Position numbers and translations under genes: made by a program
Assembly (NCBI GenBank): GCA_028242535.1
Contig: JAOJYB010000001.1
Location: 1 to 64,000, forward strand
DNA from: Candidatus Nitrosopelagicus sp.
GTDB taxonomy: Archaea > Thermoproteota > Nitrososphaeria > Nitrososphaerales > Nitrosopumilaceae
DNA: 64,000 nucleotides
Direction: 5' to 3'
Notes under the pieces: generated by a model
What the model was told of the DNA's origin: nothing
What the model saw: only the letters and a program-made list of their open reading frames with translations
Database searches by the model: none
In this document: positions 11,101 to 21,496 of the stretch, in pieces
Numbering within the stretch: the first letter of the stretch is position 1
How the letters are laid out: each line of letters opens with the position of its first letter

Positions 11101-12387
11101 ACTAGCAGTACCATGACCCAATACATCAGTCATTACACCAAAAAATTGTCCACTTTGGTCAATTGGAGGAAGTAAAGTACCATTGATTGCACCAAAATTT
11201 TTATCAATGTTTGATTTTTTGTTGATTGCACCATAGATGTCTAATACTTGAGCACCAAGTGTGCCTGCGCTATAATCAAATTTACCATCATCATCATAAT
11301 CATAAACGAGAAACTCATTTCCATCTCCTATAACATGTAAAACATCATCAGTGAAATCAAAATCAAATTCAGGTTTTTCGTTGTCAGATGTATTTGTAAA
11401 GTCTTGCCAAGAAGTTGACATGTCAGGGATAATTGTATCATAAATACCAGATATTTTTGAATCAACGACTAAAACAGGAACCACCTGTGGTTGTCTTGGA
11501 GTTCCTTGAAACATTACACCCAGATGGTAAACACCACTTTTTGATTCAATATAGTCATGCTTGTCTTTTCCAATTTTCATATCTTCACTTAGTGTTCCAT
11601 TAAGTAACGGAGTGTTTCCATACATTGGAAACATTGAATTGTAAACTAACAAACTAGTTTCATCACCATTTTGTGCTATATTCAAAAAAACACCACCATC
11701 TCTAGATTTTACATAAACATCAGAAGTTGTTTCATGTTTTGCAGATTTTGTAAAATTTTTAATTGTTCCATATTGATCAATATTTGCTGCAAAGGTTGCA
11801 TTGGTTAAAATCAATCCTTGCCCATCGGGGTCTAACATTATAGGGATATTTTGCTCATCACGTGCAACTGAATGTTGTATATCTAGATTTGAGAAATCAA
11901 CACCAGTGTCAATGATAGCAATTTTTACATTCTTTCCTGTAACATTGTAAAGTGAATGTACACGTTCTGAATTTGCAATGTTTCCAATAGTAGAAATCTG
12001 ACTAATATTATCTTTTGAGATGTACTTTGAATGAAAATCTAACTGAAAATCTTCCATAACATGGAATCCTTTAGACTGGAAAATGGAGATGGTGTTTTCA
12101 GGAATAACAACTATTGAAAAAAATCCATTTGATGAAGATATAGAATAATCTGTTTTTATATTTCCAAGTTCAGATGAGGAACCTTTTCCAAAAATGAGAT
12201 AACGCTTTAGTTGTTGTTCGTTTGGTGATTCATTAAATTTTATAATTTGAGATTCATGGCTTGGTGAAACATGAGAATAATTTTCAAAGTTTTGATCAAT
12301 CATATCACCATTTAAAAAAGAGAATGACTCGGAAACTAGCGCAGGAACTGTGATTAAAAATGCCAGTATAAGTATTGATTTAATCAT
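8146..12387 (-). CDS. large membrane-anchored subtilisin-like protease (S8)
   Basis: A secreted serine protease of 1413 residues. An N-terminal signal peptide (about 1-22) is followed by a subtilase domain with catalytic D160 (A-I-I-D-T-G), H425 (G-H-G-T) and S649 (G-T-S-M-S-A-P), and the oxyanion Asn N549. Some 265 residues separate Asp and His, where subtilisin has about 32; tripeptidyl-peptidase II and pyrolysin have insertions here. The C-terminal half holds several beta-sandwich domains, then one membrane helix near 1388-1408 and a basic tail, so the catalytic part is outside the cell. It sits in the same strand block as a second anchored surface protein and the S-layer gene, which suggests a role in cell-envelope processing; that is inference. 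Confidence 0.93.
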   Translation of the reverse strand: MIKSILILAFLITVPALVSESFSFLNGDMIDQNFENYSHVSPSHESQIIKFNESPNEQQLKRYLIFGKGSSSELGNIKTDYSISSSNGFFSIVVIPENTISIFQSKGFHVMEDFQLDFHSKYISKDNISQISTIGNIANSERVHSLYNVTGKNVKIAIIDTGVDFSNLDIQHSVARDEQNIPIMLDPDGQGLILTNATFAANIDQYGTIKNFTKSAKHETTSDVYVKSRDGGVFLNIAQNGDETSLLVYNSMFPMYGNTPLLNGTLSEDMKIGKDKHDYIESKSGVYHLGVMFQGTPRQPQVVPVLVVDSKISGIYDTIIPDMSTSWQDFTNTSDNEKPEFDFDFTDDVLHVIGDGNEFLVYDYDDDGKFDYSAGTLGAQVLDIYGAINKKSNIDKNFGAINGTLLPPIDQSGQFFGVMTDVLGHGTASAGTIVSKGLQEYDIYNNTKKFHIKGIAPDAKIIPVKALWFGDILYAWLWSAGFDNDDVEWNFSGSTRADIISNSWGVSTFPNFEYAPGFDLLSLVMTTLSLPGSFNEDYPGVLMVSSAGNSGHGYGTIGLPNASPTGISVGATTNNIFVGFGPFKDEPRFGNSTKHSDHVVDFSSRGPTIIGDPKPDLMSVGAYSFTPSSVTKPSEDYKQDPFGMFGGTSMSAPIVSGTAALVIQSLNDNSKQFSPFDIKNILMSTAKDMQNDPFTQGSGMVDSLDAVRFVHGEGGVFQVYNDASSKNLNSILEAPLKNLNYTAFGMSHPSISLDKINQTSWFAGRLNSGDDSKATFKIENPTNKTLSIKITPQKLELIEKFTYDGFTEPRLQDSYFNETDTYRPNYVSLGNMTISGNNVSNSNMDVPDNSTLLVLNANFSFDQFMNQTNPIYADDLKISSLYIYDWNDKDDNSEISSDELSLVNRGGSWGTNQELRITKPTNQFENEMVVGIYPVPERYSYWGGSINQNSTSMNYTLSASYFEKNNWNDVTVEKQVVTIPPKQIVEIDAKISTTDEQKTGIYDGFLTFEGEHHTANVPVSYVIVEKIQKDIPFTFVGSDDDVNFGNEYVKGAFDMSNRYMAGDWRQFYLDVEDNTINTASFELSWENDHTNFSAFVLDPHGKIIGTNMPTGVFGHFMNWASLDWLGNSPFSQGGGFFPVKNKDTTSTLIFAPINQTGTHSLLVHSTLFDGQDITEPLTLVAKFSTLTADQSPPQIILEINKFIKSDDVIIPEIIEDNPSSTVYMLNGNQIQIDDSGIDVSTLEDGSHTLIINAIDKFGLQSSQTFDFVVDTKSPIIELLSQNNTAVSNRLDIQLSVDDQNLPKSDYLSLLLPNGERIVDQKSYSFDTSDLEEGEFSIGIFAQDEAKNSISSKIMFEIDHSIIDSAKPLISTTSSQIAESSANYLLIIVIGIIVIAIVSVLVVLKQKSKIPQKN

Positions 12388-13540: not shown

Positions 13541-16500
13541 TTATACGACTCGGATACTTGTTGAAACAGTATCAGATAGAGCAGTTGGATTATCTACGCT
13601 CTCCCATACAAAGACAGTTGCCTCATATGTTCCTGCTGAAGATGGTATCCATGACAATGCTGGACTGAATGATTGTCCGGCAGCCAGTTGACCTGTAATC
13701 CATGCTAGTGAAACAGTTACTCCGTTGCCATCCTGAACCTGTACTAAGTAAGCAAATGATTGATCTTTATCCTGACCGTTTACCAAATCTGCTTCAATCT
13801 GTACTTGTTGGTCAACTGATACCTCACTTAATGAGTTACCAAATGAATCAACTACTCTTGCGTTTGCTGCTGGAGCGCGCTCAAGAGGAGGTACGACTGT
13901 GCCGATAATGGATGTGCCAGTGATTGAAAGACTATCACCTGATGTGTAGTCTGGTCCTGGAAGTGTGTTATCATCGTACTCGACAGTGATTGTGTCACCT
14001 TCTGCGACTCTGAGTCTGTGACCAGATGATTCGTCGTCAACTGTAAAGGTTACAGTGCCTTCGAATGTTCCGGTTGCCTCATTTGTCTCAGTAATTGTTA
14101 CAGAAACACCACCTTGATCGGATGATGACCATACGTCAACGTTGAAATTGTCTACATTTTCTGGATCCCAGTTCATATCTGGGTCAACTACTCTTATGAC
14201 TCCGCTAGATCCTGCTGGATATGAAGATTCTAGCCATTGTGCTTCACCGATATTCCATCTGACTAATGCAGATCCTACAATTACCTCATCCTCGTTAAAC
14301 TCGTATGAGACTGTAAGTCCGTCGTCGTCAGTTGATTTAATCGCACCATCTGTTGGTCCAGTGCCAGAGGCAGAGGAGATTGAAGTTACATCATAACCGC
14401 TTGAATCACCAGTGTCTGGGTCACCATCAGCGTCGTAGTTGTATCCTTTGAGGATAACTTCGCCGCTAAAGATTCCAGTATCTGATCCAGTCTCTGCTAG
14501 AGTGTATCCAGTGAGTTTCTGTGTTCTGGTTTGTACGATTAATGGGTCGTCGTCAGTATCACCAATCTTGTCAACGAGTCCGCTGTCAAAGTTGTGATCT
14601 GGGGCGACTATTGTGATGTATACTTTATCTGTCCATGTGTAGACCTTTTGGTCTAGTTCAATGGTTGCACCAAAGTTTGATGTGTATACGGTTACGCCAA
14701 TGTCTGATGATTCTTCACCAACATATTTAGCTCCACTTGGAGAATAGTCAACGTATTCTAGATCGATTTGTTCACCTCTGTCTAGAGCAGTACCAGCAAG
14801 TGTTGATGGTACTTCGATAACAATCTGGAAGATTCCAGTGCTGTCACCTGTTTCTCTAAAGTCAGATGGTTCTGGGTCGAAGGTAGATGCGTATGAAGTA
14901 CCAGCATCGCCGGAATTACCCATTGCTGTGGTCTTTGCATCTGAGTCCCACTCGATTAGATCGAGGTCCCAGGTTTCTGATTCGTCAGATTCCAAATTAA
15001 GGTCTGGTTCAATCAAGGTCATGATAATATCACTTCCAATGATGTAAACAGACTTGTCTGTTTGTAATACGCCGTTTCTCATGTCAAATGTTGCTGAGTC
15101 GAATGCTACGCCTGTGTTACCTGATGCATCGTTCTGGTCAGTATATTCTACAGTGATTACATCACCTTGCAAGATACAATGATATTGTGAACTTGCTGTT
15201 GATGCAAATCTGTTTCCTGATCCTGTTCCAGTTGATCCGTCAGTAGCAGTATATGATGAAGTCTTAGATGGGCAATCTGCGCTGTCAGGACCGTCAGTAT
15301 ATTTGACTGTCATGTCCAGTTCGAATACTCCAGAATCTGGAGCAGTCTCTGAGATTGGACCAAGTTCACGTGTGCCGTTAGACACACCACCGTCAACTAC
15401 GGTTGTAGTTGCTGTGATAACACCATTTTTGGTATTATCTGCACCGGCTGTTGCGAGTACTACTGCTTCACTTCCTCTGGAAACGTAGATCTTTAGAGGT
15501 CCACGGTTTGAGGATGAAGTAGTGTTCTCTGCAATTTGATCTTCACCTGTTGCTGATACATCATAATCTGGGTCATCTACACGTATGTGAATGGTTAAGT
15601 CACCATTACCAAGTGTTTCAGATGCTGCGTCAAGATATGATCCGCTAATTCCAGTCGCGTGGATTGGGAATACGGATCTACCGTTTGGATTTTTCTTAGA
15701 GGTTTCTGCTGTGAAATCACTAATTTGTCCAAATGGTACAGGGTAAACAGTTCTGTCTAGTGAGACTGAACCAGTGTTTGCTCTGATGCCTGCGCCGTCA
15801 CCTACTTCGATGATTTCGCCAGATGCGTCTCTGTAATCTACATAGTTAACTTCGAGATCTTTACCTAGTGTTGATGTTACTGTACATGTTCCGCTACTTC
15901 TTGCACCATACTGTGATGGTATTTGGAAGTCACCAGTGAATACACCAGTGTCTACTCCAGTTTCTACTAGAGTAAATCCGGAATTGTACAGACCATCAGT
16001 CACACCAGAATCCAAATTGCTACTACATGCGGCATTGCCGTCGGTAGTACTATCTGAATCTAGCCATAGCTCATCATCAATTGTGATGTCTAGCATTCGA
16101 CCGTTGTTTGCGCCTACGGAGTTTTGTCCGTAACCGTCTTTACCTACTTGGTCATGTGCTGGATCTCCCAAATCATTTACAACAGTGTAAATGTTAATGA
16201 GTTCTGGTTCTGTGTTAAGATCTGAGTCAGTTAATGTAACTGTTACAGTGTCTGCTTCTTTGTAACTGTCGTTGTCAAACTCTACAACACCTGAGTGTGT
16301 TGGAGCTGCTAATTGATCTGATATTTGTGTTTCTACGCCATCTGCGCCGAGGTCGAGGTAAGATACACGGATCTCATCTTCGTCAGTACTGTCATTGTGG
16401 ACAATCATGACGACCTGGTCACCGTATGCAACTGTGGAGTTGTATGTGTTAGTGTTGTTTACGTTAAGTTGGTTTAACATTACGTATTCAACATTAGCAT

Positions 16501-18790
16501 CGAACAAACCACTGTCGTTGCCAGATCCATTTGGTGAATCTTCTTCTACTTCTAATCGGTAGATTGCGTTATTGTGTCTGTCTGAGGAATTTACGCCGTC
16601 TTCTGATTGACCCCATGTTACAATATCAAGCGATAATGGAGTTGCGTCACCAACTGCTTTATTTACAGTGGAGTCAACTGCCAAAAAGGTTGCTATTACA
16701 CGTAGGGCGTCTCCGCCGGTTAGTGAACTTGTTCCTGCAAGTTTGTACAATGGATGGTTCAACAATGCATTACCAACTAAGCCTTCAGTGTAGGCAATTC
16801 CTACATGAGAGTTAGCTGCTGTGCCGATAGTGCCAGAGGTTGTGCCGTAGAGTCCTACGTCGCCAATAGCACCACCTGCGAATGATGAGTCACCAATTGT
16901 AAAGTTCATCTTGAAAGATAAGTTATCACTTCCACCGTTTAATCCTCTGAAGTCATACTGCACATATGTATATGCAGCAGTTCCGTTTGCATTACTGATC
17001 AAGTCAGTTAGTGTGCTAACGGTTGTATCAGAAGAGTGGGTGAATATTAGCTTGTCAGATGCAGCGAATGCTGCTGGTTCTGCTGCTACTGTGATAATTG
17101 ATCGTTCACTATATTTCTCATAACACGATGTATATGATGTAGCAGTACTTGATGCGTAATCTGAACTACATTGATTTTCTAAATCACTATCCCATGTAAC
17201 AATAGCCTCGTTACCTGTAGATTGCAATGTTGTTAGTGTTTTCAATGTAATTGGAGATCCGATCTTGATTGCTGGTACAATAGATGATGTTGATGCAACT
17301 GTCATGACATCCTCTGATCTATTATCAAAGTTCATGTCTGGGTCAAATATCTCTATTGAGACTACTTCACCAGAATTCCATTCTGCACCTATGTCATCTG
17401 TAAGATACTCGATTGTTGCAAACTGTGGCATATGCAATACACCGTATTTAACCTCATCAAATTCGAATACTGCTTGTGAGCCTCTTTTGGCGTCAGTATT
17501 GATTAACATGTTGGCGGTTAAACCTTCATCCCAATTGACGAACACACCAGTGTTTGCACCGGCTTCTGTGAGTGTAATTGGTTGATCTGCAGCATTGATA
17601 TCAGCAGTTGGACATAATCCAGATGCTGCTGTACATATTGTATCAGCATTATCTTGGAAGTTAACTACTGCATCAGTTGTTGCGTCGGATGTAACTGTAT
17701 CACCGTTTCTATCAATTGACAATGTACCTGCTGGGAGAATATCTCCTATTGTTGCAGTTGTGAATGCGAATGCATTACCACCGGCACCTGAGGTACCTTG
17801 GGTGGATGCATCAGCAGCACCGTTTTCATCGTATAATTGATAGTAAGCAGTTTGATTTGTTGGAAGTGTTCCAAAGGTCCAAACGTCTTCGTCGGTTGGA
17901 TCAATGTTTGCATTCCAAGCATTGAGTGTCATACCTACTTCGTGTTTAAGTCCGTAAATGTCCTTATCAAAGGATAATCCTTCTGCACCGTCAGTATAAA
18001 CGAGTGATACAGTTTCATCTGCACCTGCTCTGTTATATACAATATCGACGTTTCCGTCACCTGAGAAATCCAAGAGTTGAATCATAGGCCACAAGTTTGC
18101 ACCGAGTTTGATATTACCATACTCGTTGATACTTGTACCATTAGACAAAGCTGGTGGTTCTCTTACGACGTTCATTATCTGGTTGCTGGTACTATTTTGT
18201 CCTGCACTTATGTTGATGGTGTGGTTAGCTGCAGTGATTGTACATGCTGTTGTTACGTCACCTTGTGAGTAAGCTGATGTACCTTCTGCGTCTGTTACAC
18301 TACCGTGGTCGTTTGGAATGAAAACACCTTGTGTTTCTGATGCAGCAAGTCCGGAGACTGCTTCATCGTCATTCTTGTAAGTGAGGTCAGTTGCTGGACC
18401 ACATAATTTACCAAAGTCTCCACCACTTGAACCACCTGCAGATTCCTGCGTGTAGTAAGCGTCGAGGGCATTGGCAGAGTCTGCGTCTGCAACGTATGCA
18501 TACCATGCTCCATCTACGGCTTGCGCCATGAGGATGGATGATCCATTAATGGATACGTCCGGCATACCGTAAGCAGTATCAAGATCTGCAATAGATCCTT
18601 CTGATACTACAACTTCGATAACTTGTGCTTTAGTGAATGATCCTTCAGCTTCCGCTGAGACATACAAATGCTCGTTAGCTGCCTCGGCCTCTGGCATAAA
18701 TGTGCTTGAGAAGCCCATGGCAGCTGACCATGTTAGCATTATAGTCATTAAGGTTAGACTAGTTATTTTTCGTCCTAATTCTTTATTCAT
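13541..18790 (-). CDS. S-layer protein, Nitrosopumilus type
   Basis: The main surface-lattice protein: 1749 residues, very acidic, with an N-terminal signal peptide (cleavage likely after A-E-A at about 36-38). The N terminus and length match the S-layer protein I know from Nitrosopumilus maritimus. The body is a chain of Ig-like domains. A motif of the form E-T-G-x-D-T-G-x-F recurs at about residues 412, 943, 1150, 1315, 1433 and 1575, often preceded by an acidic motif (D-P-D-M-N and variants) that could bind divalent cations. The C-terminal 110 residues form a distinct domain without a membrane anchor. Codons use more G and C than the neighbours, as expected of a highly expressed gene. It has its own promoter and terminator. 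Confidence 0.93.
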   Translation of the reverse strand: MNKELGRKITSLTLMTIMLTWSAAMGFSSTFMPEAEAANEHLYVSAEAEGSFTKAQVIEVVVSEGSIADLDTAYGMPDVSINGSSILMAQAVDGAWYAYVADADSANALDAYYTQESAGGSSGGDFGKLCGPATDLTYKNDDEAVSGLAASETQGVFIPNDHGSVTDAEGTSAYSQGDVTTACTITAANHTINISAGQNSTSNQIMNVVREPPALSNGTSINEYGNIKLGANLWPMIQLLDFSGDGNVDIVYNRAGADETVSLVYTDGAEGLSFDKDIYGLKHEVGMTLNAWNANIDPTDEDVWTFGTLPTNQTAYYQLYDENGAADASTQGTSGAGGNAFAFTTATIGDILPAGTLSIDRNGDTVTSDATTDAVVNFQDNADTICTAASGLCPTADINAADQPITLTEAGANTGVFVNWDEGLTANMLINTDAKRGSQAVFEFDEVKYGVLHMPQFATIEYLTDDIGAEWNSGEVVSIEIFDPDMNFDNRSEDVMTVASTSSIVPAIKIGSPITLKTLTTLQSTGNEAIVTWDSDLENQCSSDYASSTATSYTSCYEKYSERSIITVAAEPAAFAASDKLIFTHSSDTTVSTLTDLISNANGTAAYTYVQYDFRGLNGGSDNLSFKMNFTIGDSSFAGGAIGDVGLYGTTSGTIGTAANSHVGIAYTEGLVGNALLNHPLYKLAGTSSLTGGDALRVIATFLAVDSTVNKAVGDATPLSLDIVTWGQSEDGVNSSDRHNNAIYRLEVEEDSPNGSGNDSGLFDANVEYVMLNQLNVNNTNTYNSTVAYGDQVVMIVHNDSTDEDEIRVSYLDLGADGVETQISDQLAAPTHSGVVEFDNDSYKEADTVTVTLTDSDLNTEPELINIYTVVNDLGDPAHDQVGKDGYGQNSVGANNGRMLDITIDDELWLDSDSTTDGNAACSSNLDSGVTDGLYNSGFTLVETGVDTGVFTGDFQIPSQYGARSSGTCTVTSTLGKDLEVNYVDYRDASGEIIEVGDGAGIRANTGSVSLDRTVYPVPFGQISDFTAETSKKNPNGRSVFPIHATGISGSYLDAASETLGNGDLTIHIRVDDPDYDVSATGEDQIAENTTSSSNRGPLKIYVSRGSEAVVLATAGADNTKNGVITATTTVVDGGVSNGTRELGPISETAPDSGVFELDMTVKYTDGPDSADCPSKTSSYTATDGSTGTGSGNRFASTASSQYHCILQGDVITVEYTDQNDASGNTGVAFDSATFDMRNGVLQTDKSVYIIGSDIIMTLIEPDLNLESDESETWDLDLIEWDSDAKTTAMGNSGDAGTSYASTFDPEPSDFRETGDSTGIFQIVIEVPSTLAGTALDRGEQIDLEYVDYSPSGAKYVGEESSDIGVTVYTSNFGATIELDQKVYTWTDKVYITIVAPDHNFDSGLVDKIGDTDDDPLIVQTRTQKLTGYTLAETGSDTGIFSGEVILKGYNYDADGDPDTGDSSGYDVTSISSASGTGPTDGAIKSTDDDGLTVSYEFNEDEVIVGSALVRWNIGEAQWLESSYPAGSSGVIRVVDPDMNWDPENVDNFNVDVWSSSDQGGVSVTITETNEATGTFEGTVTFTVDDESSGHRLRVAEGDTITVEYDDNTLPGPDYTSGDSLSITGTSIIGTVVPPLERAPAANARVVDSFGNSLSEVSVDQQVQIEADLVNGQDKDQSFAYLVQVQDGNGVTVSLAWITGQLAAGQSFSPALSWIPSSAGTYEATVFVWESVDNPTALSDTVSTSIRVV

Positions 18791-18934: not shown

Positions 18935-20266
18935 CTAAGCACTGATTGATTTTGTGCCTAGGAGACTCTTGTATAGAGAGATGGCATCCTCTTCATTACT
19001 AGGACCCACGACTACAGCCGAGCCCTTCTTCATGAAACTGACTGAGAGATCATTTGTACGCATGGATAATCCCAAGTCCCCCTGATTTTCCACTTTAAAT
19101 CCCCTCTCTTTTGCTATTGTAGTAACATCTGCAACATCAAGATTCACCTCATATGTAGGAGTGATTGAAAAGGTTCTTTTTCCCATGTTTCTGCCACATA
19201 ATTCTTCTAAGATTAATTCCTGTTTTGGAGTATCTATCTTTTTGCCAGACCCACAAACAGAACATTCTTCTTGTCTGAAGGTTTTAACAGATGAAAATTC
19301 TAAATTCTCCAAGTCAATAGATAGAAATTTTTCTGAGGACTTTGGTTTTTTTCCAATTAAAACATCAACTGCTTCGTACACTTCTATTCCACCAACAATA
19401 GAAAGTATTGAAGGATGTACACCTTGTATACTACAAGTTGGCATTGCATCTTCATCCAATGCAGGAAACATGCAATGATAACATGCAGTTTCATTTGGTA
19501 AAACTGTAAAGACTTGACCTGTAACACCAACTGCAGCACCTGTAACAAACGGAATGTTTTTTTCAACACATGCTTTGTTTAATGAGTAGCGTGCATTAAC
19601 ACTGTCAAGTGCATCAATTACAACGTCACATCCATCAATGATGTCAGCAGCATTGTAATCATTTATAGAAACAGGTAATGCTTCAATTTCTACATTAGGG
19701 TTTAATTTTTTTAATTTTTTTTCTGCAACTTCAACTTTAACTTGTCCAACATCATCTTCGTTAAACATTGTTTGTCTATGTAAATTAGATAATTCAATTA
19801 CATCTCTATCAACAATTCTTAGTTTCCCAACACCCATTGCTGCAAGTCTAGTTGTTATTGGATTACCTAAACCGCCAACACCAACAACACAAGCTTTGGA
19901 GTTTTTTAATTTTAATTGTCCGTCGTAACCAATTTGTTCCAACATTACTTGACGTGAATATTGATCTAATTCTTTTTCAGACAGGTCTGAACCGCCAGCA
20001 ACAGCAGGCAAAATGTAAACTTCGTCATTTTCATTTAGCGGAGTGTCAAGACCATTATCAAACGCTGCATTTTTTCCATTGATGTAAATGTTAATTAGAG
20101 AACGTGGTGAACCGTCTGCTTCCAAAACTTTTCTCTTAAAGTCATCACCCATAATTTCAGAAATTTTTTCAAAGGATTCTTTGAGGGTGGATGCGTCTAG
20201 TTCTGTTTTTTTCTCACCACCACCAGCATTAAGTACAGATGGAATTGTGAAGGTAATTTTTGTCAT
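18935..20266 (-). CDS. MoaD/ThiS-like domain fused to an E1-like (MoeB/ThiF) enzyme
   Basis: A 443-residue fusion. Residues 1-92 are a ubiquitin-like sulfur carrier of the MoaD family ending in V-A-G-G (G91-G92). Residues 93-345 are an E1-like adenylyltransferase: nucleotide loop G-V-G-G-L-G-N (129-135), the D-x-I-E-x-S-N-L-x-R-Q motif around 155-165, zinc Cys pairs C262-x2-C265 and C335-x2-C338, and candidate catalytic C278 in M-P-T-C. Residues 346-443 are an extra unassigned domain. E1 enzymes adenylate the free C-terminal glycine of a carrier; here the diglycine is internal, so it cannot be used unless the chain is cut. The gene follows the threonine-synthase-like gene by 9 bases on the same strand. 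Molybdopterin, thiamine or cysteine/homocysteine sulfur transfer are all possible. Confidence 0.88.
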   Translation of the reverse strand: MTKITFTIPSVLNAGGGEKKTELDASTLKESFEKISEIMGDDFKRKVLEADGSPRSLINIYINGKNAAFDNGLDTPLNENDEVYILPAVAGGSDLSEKELDQYSRQVMLEQIGYDGQLKLKNSKACVVGVGGLGNPITTRLAAMGVGKLRIVDRDVIELSNLHRQTMFNEDDVGQVKVEVAEKKLKKLNPNVEIEALPVSINDYNAADIIDGCDVVIDALDSVNARYSLNKACVEKNIPFVTGAAVGVTGQVFTVLPNETACYHCMFPALDEDAMPTCSIQGVHPSILSIVGGIEVYEAVDVLIGKKPKSSEKFLSIDLENLEFSSVKTFRQEECSVCGSGKKIDTPKQELILEELCGRNMGKRTFSITPTYEVNLDVADVTTIAKERGFKVENQGDLGLSMRTNDLSVSFMKKGSAVVVGPSNEEDAISLYKSLLGTKSISA

Positions 20267-20275
20267 TTTATCTAA

Positions 20276-21496
20276 TCATCCTATTACTGCTGAGATTTTT
20301 GCAACATCAGCCTGCATTACTTGTGGTTTTGTGAGTACGCTCATTATTGATTCAGTGGCTTTGAGACCATTACCAGTTACATAACAAACAGTAGTTTCAT
20401 CCTTGTCAATCTTTCCTTCTTCAACCATTTTTTTCAATACAGAAACAGATACACCGCCGGCAGGTTCTGTGAAGATTCCTTCTGTTTTTGCTAAAAGTAA
20501 AATTGCGTCTAAAATTTCTTTGTCATTTGTCTCTTCTGCAAATCCGTCATATTGTTTCAGTCTTTTTAAAACATAACGACCATCACCAGGATCACCAATT
20601 GCCAAACTCTTTGCAACAGTTTCTGGTTGCTCTACAGGAATTACTTTATCAGAATTTTTCTTAAATGCATCAACTATTGGTGCACATCCATGTGGTTGTG
20701 CACAATGCATATGCATTGAAGATAGATCATCAAGTAAAGAAACAGTTTGTAATTCTTCAAAGCCTTTACAAATTGCATTCAACATAGCACCGCTTCCAGT
20801 GGGAACTATAAGATGATTTGGAGTGTTCCAGTCTAGTTGTTCTGCAACTTCGTAGCCCAAGGTTTTGGAACCTTCAACATAATATGATCGCATGTTAATG
20901 TTAACTATACCAACACCTTTTCTGTCACCAATCTGTGCTGCAATTCTATTTGCTTCATCATATGTACCGTCAACTGAAATGTATTCCGCACCATAAGACA
21001 GTGCTTGTGCAATTTTTGCAGTTTCAATATCACTTGGTGCAAAAATGTAACAAGGTAAACTTGCTTTTGCTGCATGTGCAGCTGTTGCAGATGCTAGATT
21101 TCCAGTTGATGCACAACCAACTGACTTTAATCCAAATTCTTTTGCCTTTGAGATTGCAACTCCTGCAGGTCTATCCTTGAAAGAAAACGTTGGATTGACA
21201 GAATCATTTTTTATGTAAAGATTGTTTAGTCCCAATTCCTTTCCCAATTTTTCGGCTTTGATAAGAGGAGTCATTCCTGCCTCAATGCTTACAATATTAT
21301 TTTTGTCAACTATAGGAAGTAATTCAAAATAACGCCAGTATGTGTTTTCACGGTCTTTGAAGGTATCTTTGTTTACAGAGGGAAAATCATACTTTACGTC
21401 TAGAGGACCAAAGCACTCGTCACAAATATACTTGAAAGTAGGCTCGTATTCTTTCTTACATTCCCTACACTGAAGGTGATTTTTCCCCATATTCAT
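20276..21496 (-). CDS. thrC: threonine synthase family PLP enzyme
   Basis: A fold-type II PLP enzyme of 406 residues; by family it converts O-phosphohomoserine to threonine. An N-terminal zinc ribbon (C-R-E-C and C-D-E-C, residues 10-33) is typical of long archaeal and plant-like threonine synthases. The PLP lysine is in S-F-K-D-R-P, the phosphate loop in S-T-G-N-L-A-S and a glycine loop in G-S-G-A-M-L. Two in-frame ATGs (21496 and 21490) are possible starts. It heads a two-gene unit with the MoaD-E1 fusion. That pairing recalls the mycobacterial CysO-CysM system, where a related PLP enzyme takes sulfur from a ThiS-like carrier, so a sulfur-transfer role is a reasonable alternative. Confidence 0.85.
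   Translation of the reverse strand: MNMGKNHLQCRECKKEYEPTFKYICDECFGPLDVKYDFPSVNKDTFKDRENTYWRYFELLPIVDKNNIVSIEAGMTPLIKAEKLGKELGLNNLYIKNDSVNPTFSFKDRPAGVAISKAKEFGLKSVGCASTGNLASATAAHAAKASLPCYIFAPSDIETAKIAQALSYGAEYISVDGTYDEANRIAAQIGDRKGVGIVNINMRSYYVEGSKTLGYEVAEQLDWNTPNHLIVPTGSGAMLNAICKGFEELQTVSLLDDLSSMHMHCAQPHGCAPIVDAFKKNSDKVIPVEQPETVAKSLAIGDPGDGRYVLKRLKQYDGFAEETNDKEILDAILLLAKTEGIFTEPAGGVSVSVLKKMVEEGKIDKDETTVCYVTGNGLKATESIMSVLTKPQVMQADVAKISAVIG

Follow-up and report, generated by a model that had tools for sequence, protein, structure and literature searches.

On the reverse strand of the window (the whole 64,000-nucleotide stretch of Candidatus Nitrosopelagicus DNA analyzed here), a 406-aa protein annotated as threonine synthase is encoded (20276..21496, -) 9 bp upstream of an ATG-started gene for a 443-aa protein on the same strand (18935..20266, -). 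The open reading frame, its translation, and Pfam matches to ThiS and ThiF identify the latter as a Ubl-E1-TBP fusion, which we read as a pro-carrier joined to an E1 enzyme. Its closest relatives in the database belong to Candidatus Nitrosopelagicus (93% identity), which marks the window as DNA of an ammonia-oxidizing archaeon (AOA). Residues 1 to 92 (19991..20266, -) constitute a Ubl domain of the ThiS/MoaD/SAMP1 type. Pfam ThiS matched residues 21 to 92 up to the final position of the profile (36.9 bits; cut-off, 22.5), and the NCBIfam models SAMP1 and moaD_arch scored 43 and 41 bits, both under their cut-offs. The AOA domain is 32% identical to a MetO-like Ubl from Nonomuraea. With a beta-grasp fold, a diglycine end, and a Pfam ThiS score above the cut-off, the domain is a ThiS/MoaD-type Ubl whose diglycine lies inside the fusion gene: the tail reads LPAVAGG, and V89-A90-G91-G92 is contiguous with S93 and then the E1. 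The diglycine (19991..19996, -), directly after which we predict a cut, is followed by a linker (residues 93 to 102; 19961..19990, -), and an AlphaFold model of the fusion gave a pLDDT below 50 at residues 88 to 93, i.e., at this boundary. An earlier note, made from the sequence alone, had described a MoaD-like domain running through V-A-G-G straight into an E1, and the Pfam ThiS/ThiF boundaries and the conservation of glycines 91 and 92 bear this out.

The E1 domain (residues 103 to 336; 19259..19960, -) is of the MoeB/ThiF adenylation type according to Pfam ThiF (255 bits over exactly these residues), residue counts, and Foldseek, which returned ThiF and MoeB as top matches; the complete E1 spans about residues 103 to 340. 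The domain scored below the NCBIfam equivalog cut-offs. Its catalytic residues are intact in the fusion. The ATP-site residues and C278 are invariant across 68 to 69 alignment rows, and three of the four zinc cysteines are invariant as well, the exception being C338 (S or N in four rows). Pfam detected no rhodanese domain in the fusion, which is therefore not of the MoeBR/MoeZ/Uba4 type, and assigned the final 100 residues to no family. When this C-terminal part (about residues 344 to 443; 18938..19237, -) was folded alone with 17 orthologues, AlphaFold returned a mean pLDDT of 83, and the best PDB matches were archaeal TATA-binding proteins, at a moderate TM score of 0.50 and E values of about 0.01, none reaching 0.001. 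C357 in this domain is invariant among orthologues. A rhodanese or a novel fold was thus rejected in favor of the TBP-like tail already known from archaeal E1s (PMC2948915); the extra domain of the earlier note is real, and its supposed novelty is not. A scan for sigma-70 promoters and terminators yielded nothing over shuffled sequences, the sigma-70 model being unsuited to archaea.

The fusion itself is known. Makarova and Koonin described in 2010 (PMC2948915) the Ubl-E1-TBP fusion of Thaumarchaeota, its TBP-like E1 tail, and a Ubl-Cgi121 (KEOPS) fusion. Of 98 Thaumarchaeota assemblies in a 2024 survey (PMC11237513), 61 have a MoaD-MoeB fusion, which is listed there under molybdopterin biosynthesis and has bacterial counterparts in NC10 and Rokubacteria. 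The present gene has the same architecture (Ubl, E1 core, TBP-like domain) and lineage and belongs to this group. The earlier note missed these published descriptions, as well as the strand of the gene and the MetM-like nature of its neighbor. In the passages of the two papers considered here, the fusion is placed in a molybdenum-cofactor or general Ubl context, with no processing mechanism and no MetM-like partner mentioned. What is new here is the case for diglycine conservation and cleavage, the absence of a free Ubl from a sister species whose genome is complete, and the MetM-like partner.

To assess conservation of the diglycine, we aligned 75 rows, both fused and split; 64 of them carry the Ubl and 58 of these 64 the fused tail-to-E1 pattern. 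Both G91 and G92 were identical in all 64 Ubl-bearing rows, within a tail motif (xLPAV[A/S/G]GG) found throughout, which argues against a chance tail; the loss in orthologues that would have spoken against a functional diglycine did not appear. Among orthologues, GG and the E1 motif [FY]SRQ are separated by as few as 10 and as many as 48 residues. Outside AOA, the operon occurs unfused, in the order ThrC-like gene, Ubl ending exactly in GG or GGG, and E1 (L058, L059, L065, and L072), and the Ubl of L100 is also GG terminal. The genus g21 contains both fused (L054 and L062) and split (L063 and L064) loci, the latter with 7 to 14 extra residues beyond GG. In L062, a Ser/Asn-rich low-complexity stretch of 48 residues separates GG from the E1, and where L062 has this stretch, the Ubl and E1 frames of L063 and L064 are separate and almost overlap. 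To judge by these sequences, the g21 loci look like fusion and fission in progress. Since split relatives, including those within one genus, keep GG, the covalent link is dispensable, unlike the diglycine. An invariant GG, a linker of variable length, and outgroup Ubls that end at GG together make it most likely that the chain is cleaved after G92 and the carrier thereby released. The origin of a standalone E1 by internal initiation was rejected, because no start codon is conserved between GG and the E1 core.

Which protease could make this cut was addressed by a search for JAMM genes. The genome of the window (81% complete; most genomes compared are MAGs) encodes one E1, two Ubl domains, and two JAMM proteases, so that the search proposed in the earlier note returned two genes with a catalytic motif. 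Both JAMM-A (contig C22:37283-37687) and JAMM-B (L004:1447-1845, -, contig C20) have an intact H-x-H-x7-S-x2-D motif. The best named family of JAMM-A is the haloarchaeal desampylase, at 57 bits and thus under the cut-off of 130, and Pyrococcus JAMM1 is among its relatives in the PDB. JAMM-A was found in 130 of 132 listed genomes with a full fusion, and the two genomes without a match are fragmented MAGs of about 140 to 180 contigs. On the basis of this co-occurrence and family resemblance, JAMM-A is the best candidate protease and JAMM-B an alternative candidate; a JAMM could also act on sampylated proteins alone. The four genomes of family f7 lacked a JAMM of the Prok-JAB family, and there the Ubl is a short separate frame in all four, ending exactly at GG in the three that were read. 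As f7 is a single clade, this pattern is only suggestive.

The second Ubl of the genome is internal, too: it forms a fusion with Cgi121, a subunit of KEOPS (L002:985-1755, -, contig C6), and the HGG at the boundary is kept in 13 of 13 genomes (our own and 12 further Nitrosopumilaceae). G046, the complete single-contig genome of a sister species in the same genus, encodes no product of up to 160 aa that ends in GG, by which an overlooked free Ubl was rejected. The AOA genomes examined yielded no free carrier, nor, at the sequence level, the separate MoaD doing all the work that the earlier note had envisaged as a counterargument. A MoaD-MoaE fusion with an internal PPVSGG at its boundary (L101, in the Nitrosopumilaceae genome G139) brings the kinds of Ubl fusion in the family to three.

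The order of partner and fusion gene is kept across the order, in most relatives, from the outgroups to AOA; the GG-ending carrier beside the partner is a separate gene in f7 and f11 and a fused domain in AOA. A giant S-layer-like gene (13541-18790, -, in the window, and orthologues) often lies downstream of the operon. About 40 Nitrosopumilaceae MAGs seemed to have lost ThrC and Ubl-E1 together, which we considered as a natural control and rejected as most likely an assembly artifact: several MAG contigs break inside the operon, so that the genes only seem to be lost in fragmented genomes, and no single-contig Nitrosopumilaceae genome lacked the two genes.

The partner scored above two threonine synthase cut-offs (TIGR00260, 292 versus 167 bits; NF006050, 313 versus 303 bits), and it may therefore be a true threonine synthase. 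Its closest match among those listed from a plasmid collection came from Nonomuraea (45.8% identity; at most about 38% for the rest). A SAM riboswitch (RF00162 of Rfam; 68.7 bits; gathering score, 44.4) precedes this Nonomuraea gene and a 91-aa Ubl ending in IIPAVAGG follows it; the gene was named MetM-like by riboswitch and neighbor. In Nonomuraea gerenzanensis (NZ_LT559118.1; L204:4816-6506, +), the unannotated riboswitch, the ThrC-like gene, and the Ubl gene stand in series and, to judge by this order, are likely a metM-metO operon in a non-Streptomyces actinomycete. In a tree with long branches, the Nonomuraea protein fell into one group with the enzymes of the operon (100/99 support), apart from canonical ThrC. 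The members of this group have in common 26 residues that canonical ThrC lacks, some of them in the STGN and NPYR regions. AOA have a second ThrC homologue, which scored above the thrC cut-off and grouped with an annotated thrC from Bacillota; in the genome of the window, this 447-aa protein (L118:1156-2496, +, contig C20) is probably the true AOA threonine synthase. No Rfam match to a SAM riboswitch was found between positions 12000 and 25000 of the window. According to PMC12172450, which cites Hasebe 2024, MetM of Streptomyces is a homocysteine synthase with O-phosphohomoserine as its substrate and lies under a SAM riboswitch, a description of the metM-metO genes that the Nonomuraea arrangement matches. 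The riboswitch upstream of MetM-MetO, present in Streptomyces, is reported to be absent in Microcystis. Synteny and the grouping with the Nonomuraea protein suggest that the AOA partner is MetM-like, with a predicted role as homocysteine synthase.

Such a role would fit the methionine supply of these organisms. A full-length enzyme of PF01053 (MetB, MetC, MetY, and MetZ) was missing from 12 of 13 genomes searched, AOA included; partial matches in these 12 genomes reached at most 40 bits over at most about 160 of 381 positions, compared to a full-length match of 448 bits in the relative G203. Methionine synthase is present in AOA, which reportedly synthesize their own amino acids (PMC8397731), so that in the absence of PF01053 enzymes their homocysteine must have another source. 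When G046 was scanned with a crude motif for the NIL/ferredoxin partner of the DUF39 route, the only hit was one small two-cluster protein, which resembles NuoI. In the PALP family, the two Nitrosopelagicus genomes (our own and G046) lack the CysK/CysM-like protein of about 335 aa found in other AOA; Nitrosopelagicus has a diverged 513-aa protein (L125) with partial similarity to cysteine synthase.

Drawing on the observed architecture, conservation, operon, split relatives, gene absences in the tested genomes, and grouping of the partner, we consider it reasonably probable that the locus encodes a homocysteine-forming sulfur relay, MetM-(proMetO-E1), in which a pro-protein joins the carrier to its own E1. 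Translation would yield the sulfur-carrier Ubl joined to the E1, and a JAMM metalloprotease, with JAMM-A as the best candidate, would cut after G92 to release the first 92 residues as a carrier with LPAVAGG at its end. The E1 part would then adenylate the terminal glycine of the carrier, and a thiocarboxylate would be formed on it through C278 and perhaps C357. In the last step, the MetM-type PLP enzyme encoded upstream would use the thiocarboxylate to convert O-phosphohomoserine to homocysteine, the precursor of methionine. As only one E1 was found, its carrier is likely to supply tRNA 2-thiolation by NcsA as well.

This last activity could instead be the main one, with the cleaved carrier serving the 2-thiolation of wobble uridine in tRNA (NcsA), sampylation, or both, next to a true threonine synthase to which it is linked only historically. 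An NcsA/TtuA-type protein in nine of nine genomes tested, the supply of tRNA thiolation by Ubls in Thermococcus (PMC11323500), and the threonine synthase scores of the partner all favor this explanation. However, the partner groups with a riboswitch-linked MetM-like protein and not with canonical ThrC, another ThrC is present, the gene order has been kept from outgroups to AOA, and PF01053 enzymes are missing; we therefore regard it as unlikely, although it deserves more weight than the two readings that follow. A pairing of MoaD and MoeB for molybdenum-cofactor synthesis, suggested by automatic annotation and by the placement of the fusion under molybdopterin biosynthesis in PMC11237513, is highly improbable because MoaE is absent from the genome of the window, at its 81% completeness, and from 10 of 13 others, including the complete G046. 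Moreover, in two of the three MoaE-bearing genomes inspected MoaE has a Ubl of its own, as a MoaD-MoaE fusion in G139 and as a free Ubl adjoining MoaE in G093. The label "MoaD-like" of the earlier note thus holds for the ThiS/MoaD type of the Ubl and fails in its molybdenum-cofactor sense.

It could also be that the fusion is never cut and that the Ubl is a built-in regulator, a pseudo-substrate in the E1 active site, or a scaffold of the E1. Linkers as short as about 10 residues, the retention of the covalent link in nearly all AOA, and the conserved GG are in line with this, but E1 chemistry requires a free carboxylate, as established for MoeB, ThiF, and E1 enzymes, the genomes contain no other carrier for the E1 to activate, and the contrast between L063/L064 and L054/L062 shows that one genus can do without the link. 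An uncut fusion is accordingly improbable. Among cleavage, regulation by substrate mimicry, and a different mode of sulfur transfer, the options raised in the earlier note for the buried diglycine, the conserved GG, the split relatives, the JAMM genes, and the lack of a free MoaD best support cleavage after G92, and the regulator is less favored.

If the partner is MetM, the relay would give a name to the missing methionine step, testable with two proteins and the carrier, and it would correct the automatic annotations threonine synthase and MoaD/MoeB. The puzzle of the buried diglycine would become a step of pro-protein maturation with a named protease candidate. More tentatively, and as a joint reading that we regard as possible rather than probable, AOA may make methionine by a Ubl-thiocarboxylate route (MetM-MetO-E1) while all Ubls of the cell are N-terminal fusions, to E1, to KEOPS Cgi121, and in some species to MoaE, which are matured by JAMM proteases. 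If true, this would be a prokaryotic parallel to the ubiquitin-ribosomal protein precursors.

Ubl thiocarboxylates are used as sulfur donors for amino acids, together with a JAMM protease and an E1, in the CysO-CysM-MoeZ-Mec system of actinobacteria and in HcyS-HcyD-HcyF of Wolinella; these systems differ from that of AOA in having separate genes and other PLP enzymes. The Streptomyces metM-metO operon, as described in PMC12172450, likewise places a ThrC-like PLP enzyme beside a small diglycine-terminated sulfur carrier. Compared by description, AOA, whose activity is predicted, differ in that the carrier is fused to the E1 and the SAM riboswitch is absent. Campylobacter-type Ubl-ThiF fusions (PMC1779556) also join an N-terminal Ubl-like domain to an E1 but typically share their operons with a separate ThiS, whereas no free carrier accompanies the fusion in the AOA examined. 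For the proposed maturation, the closest likenesses are SAMP1-MoaE of Haloferax, for which a JAMM cut exactly after the Ubl glycine has been proven (HvJAMM1; PMC4443979), and MoaD-MoaE of Deinococcus, which DRJAMM cleaves and activates (PMC8832034). In both, a Ubl joined through its C-terminal glycine to a partner enzyme is freed by a JAMM protease; in AOA, the fused partner is the E1 itself.
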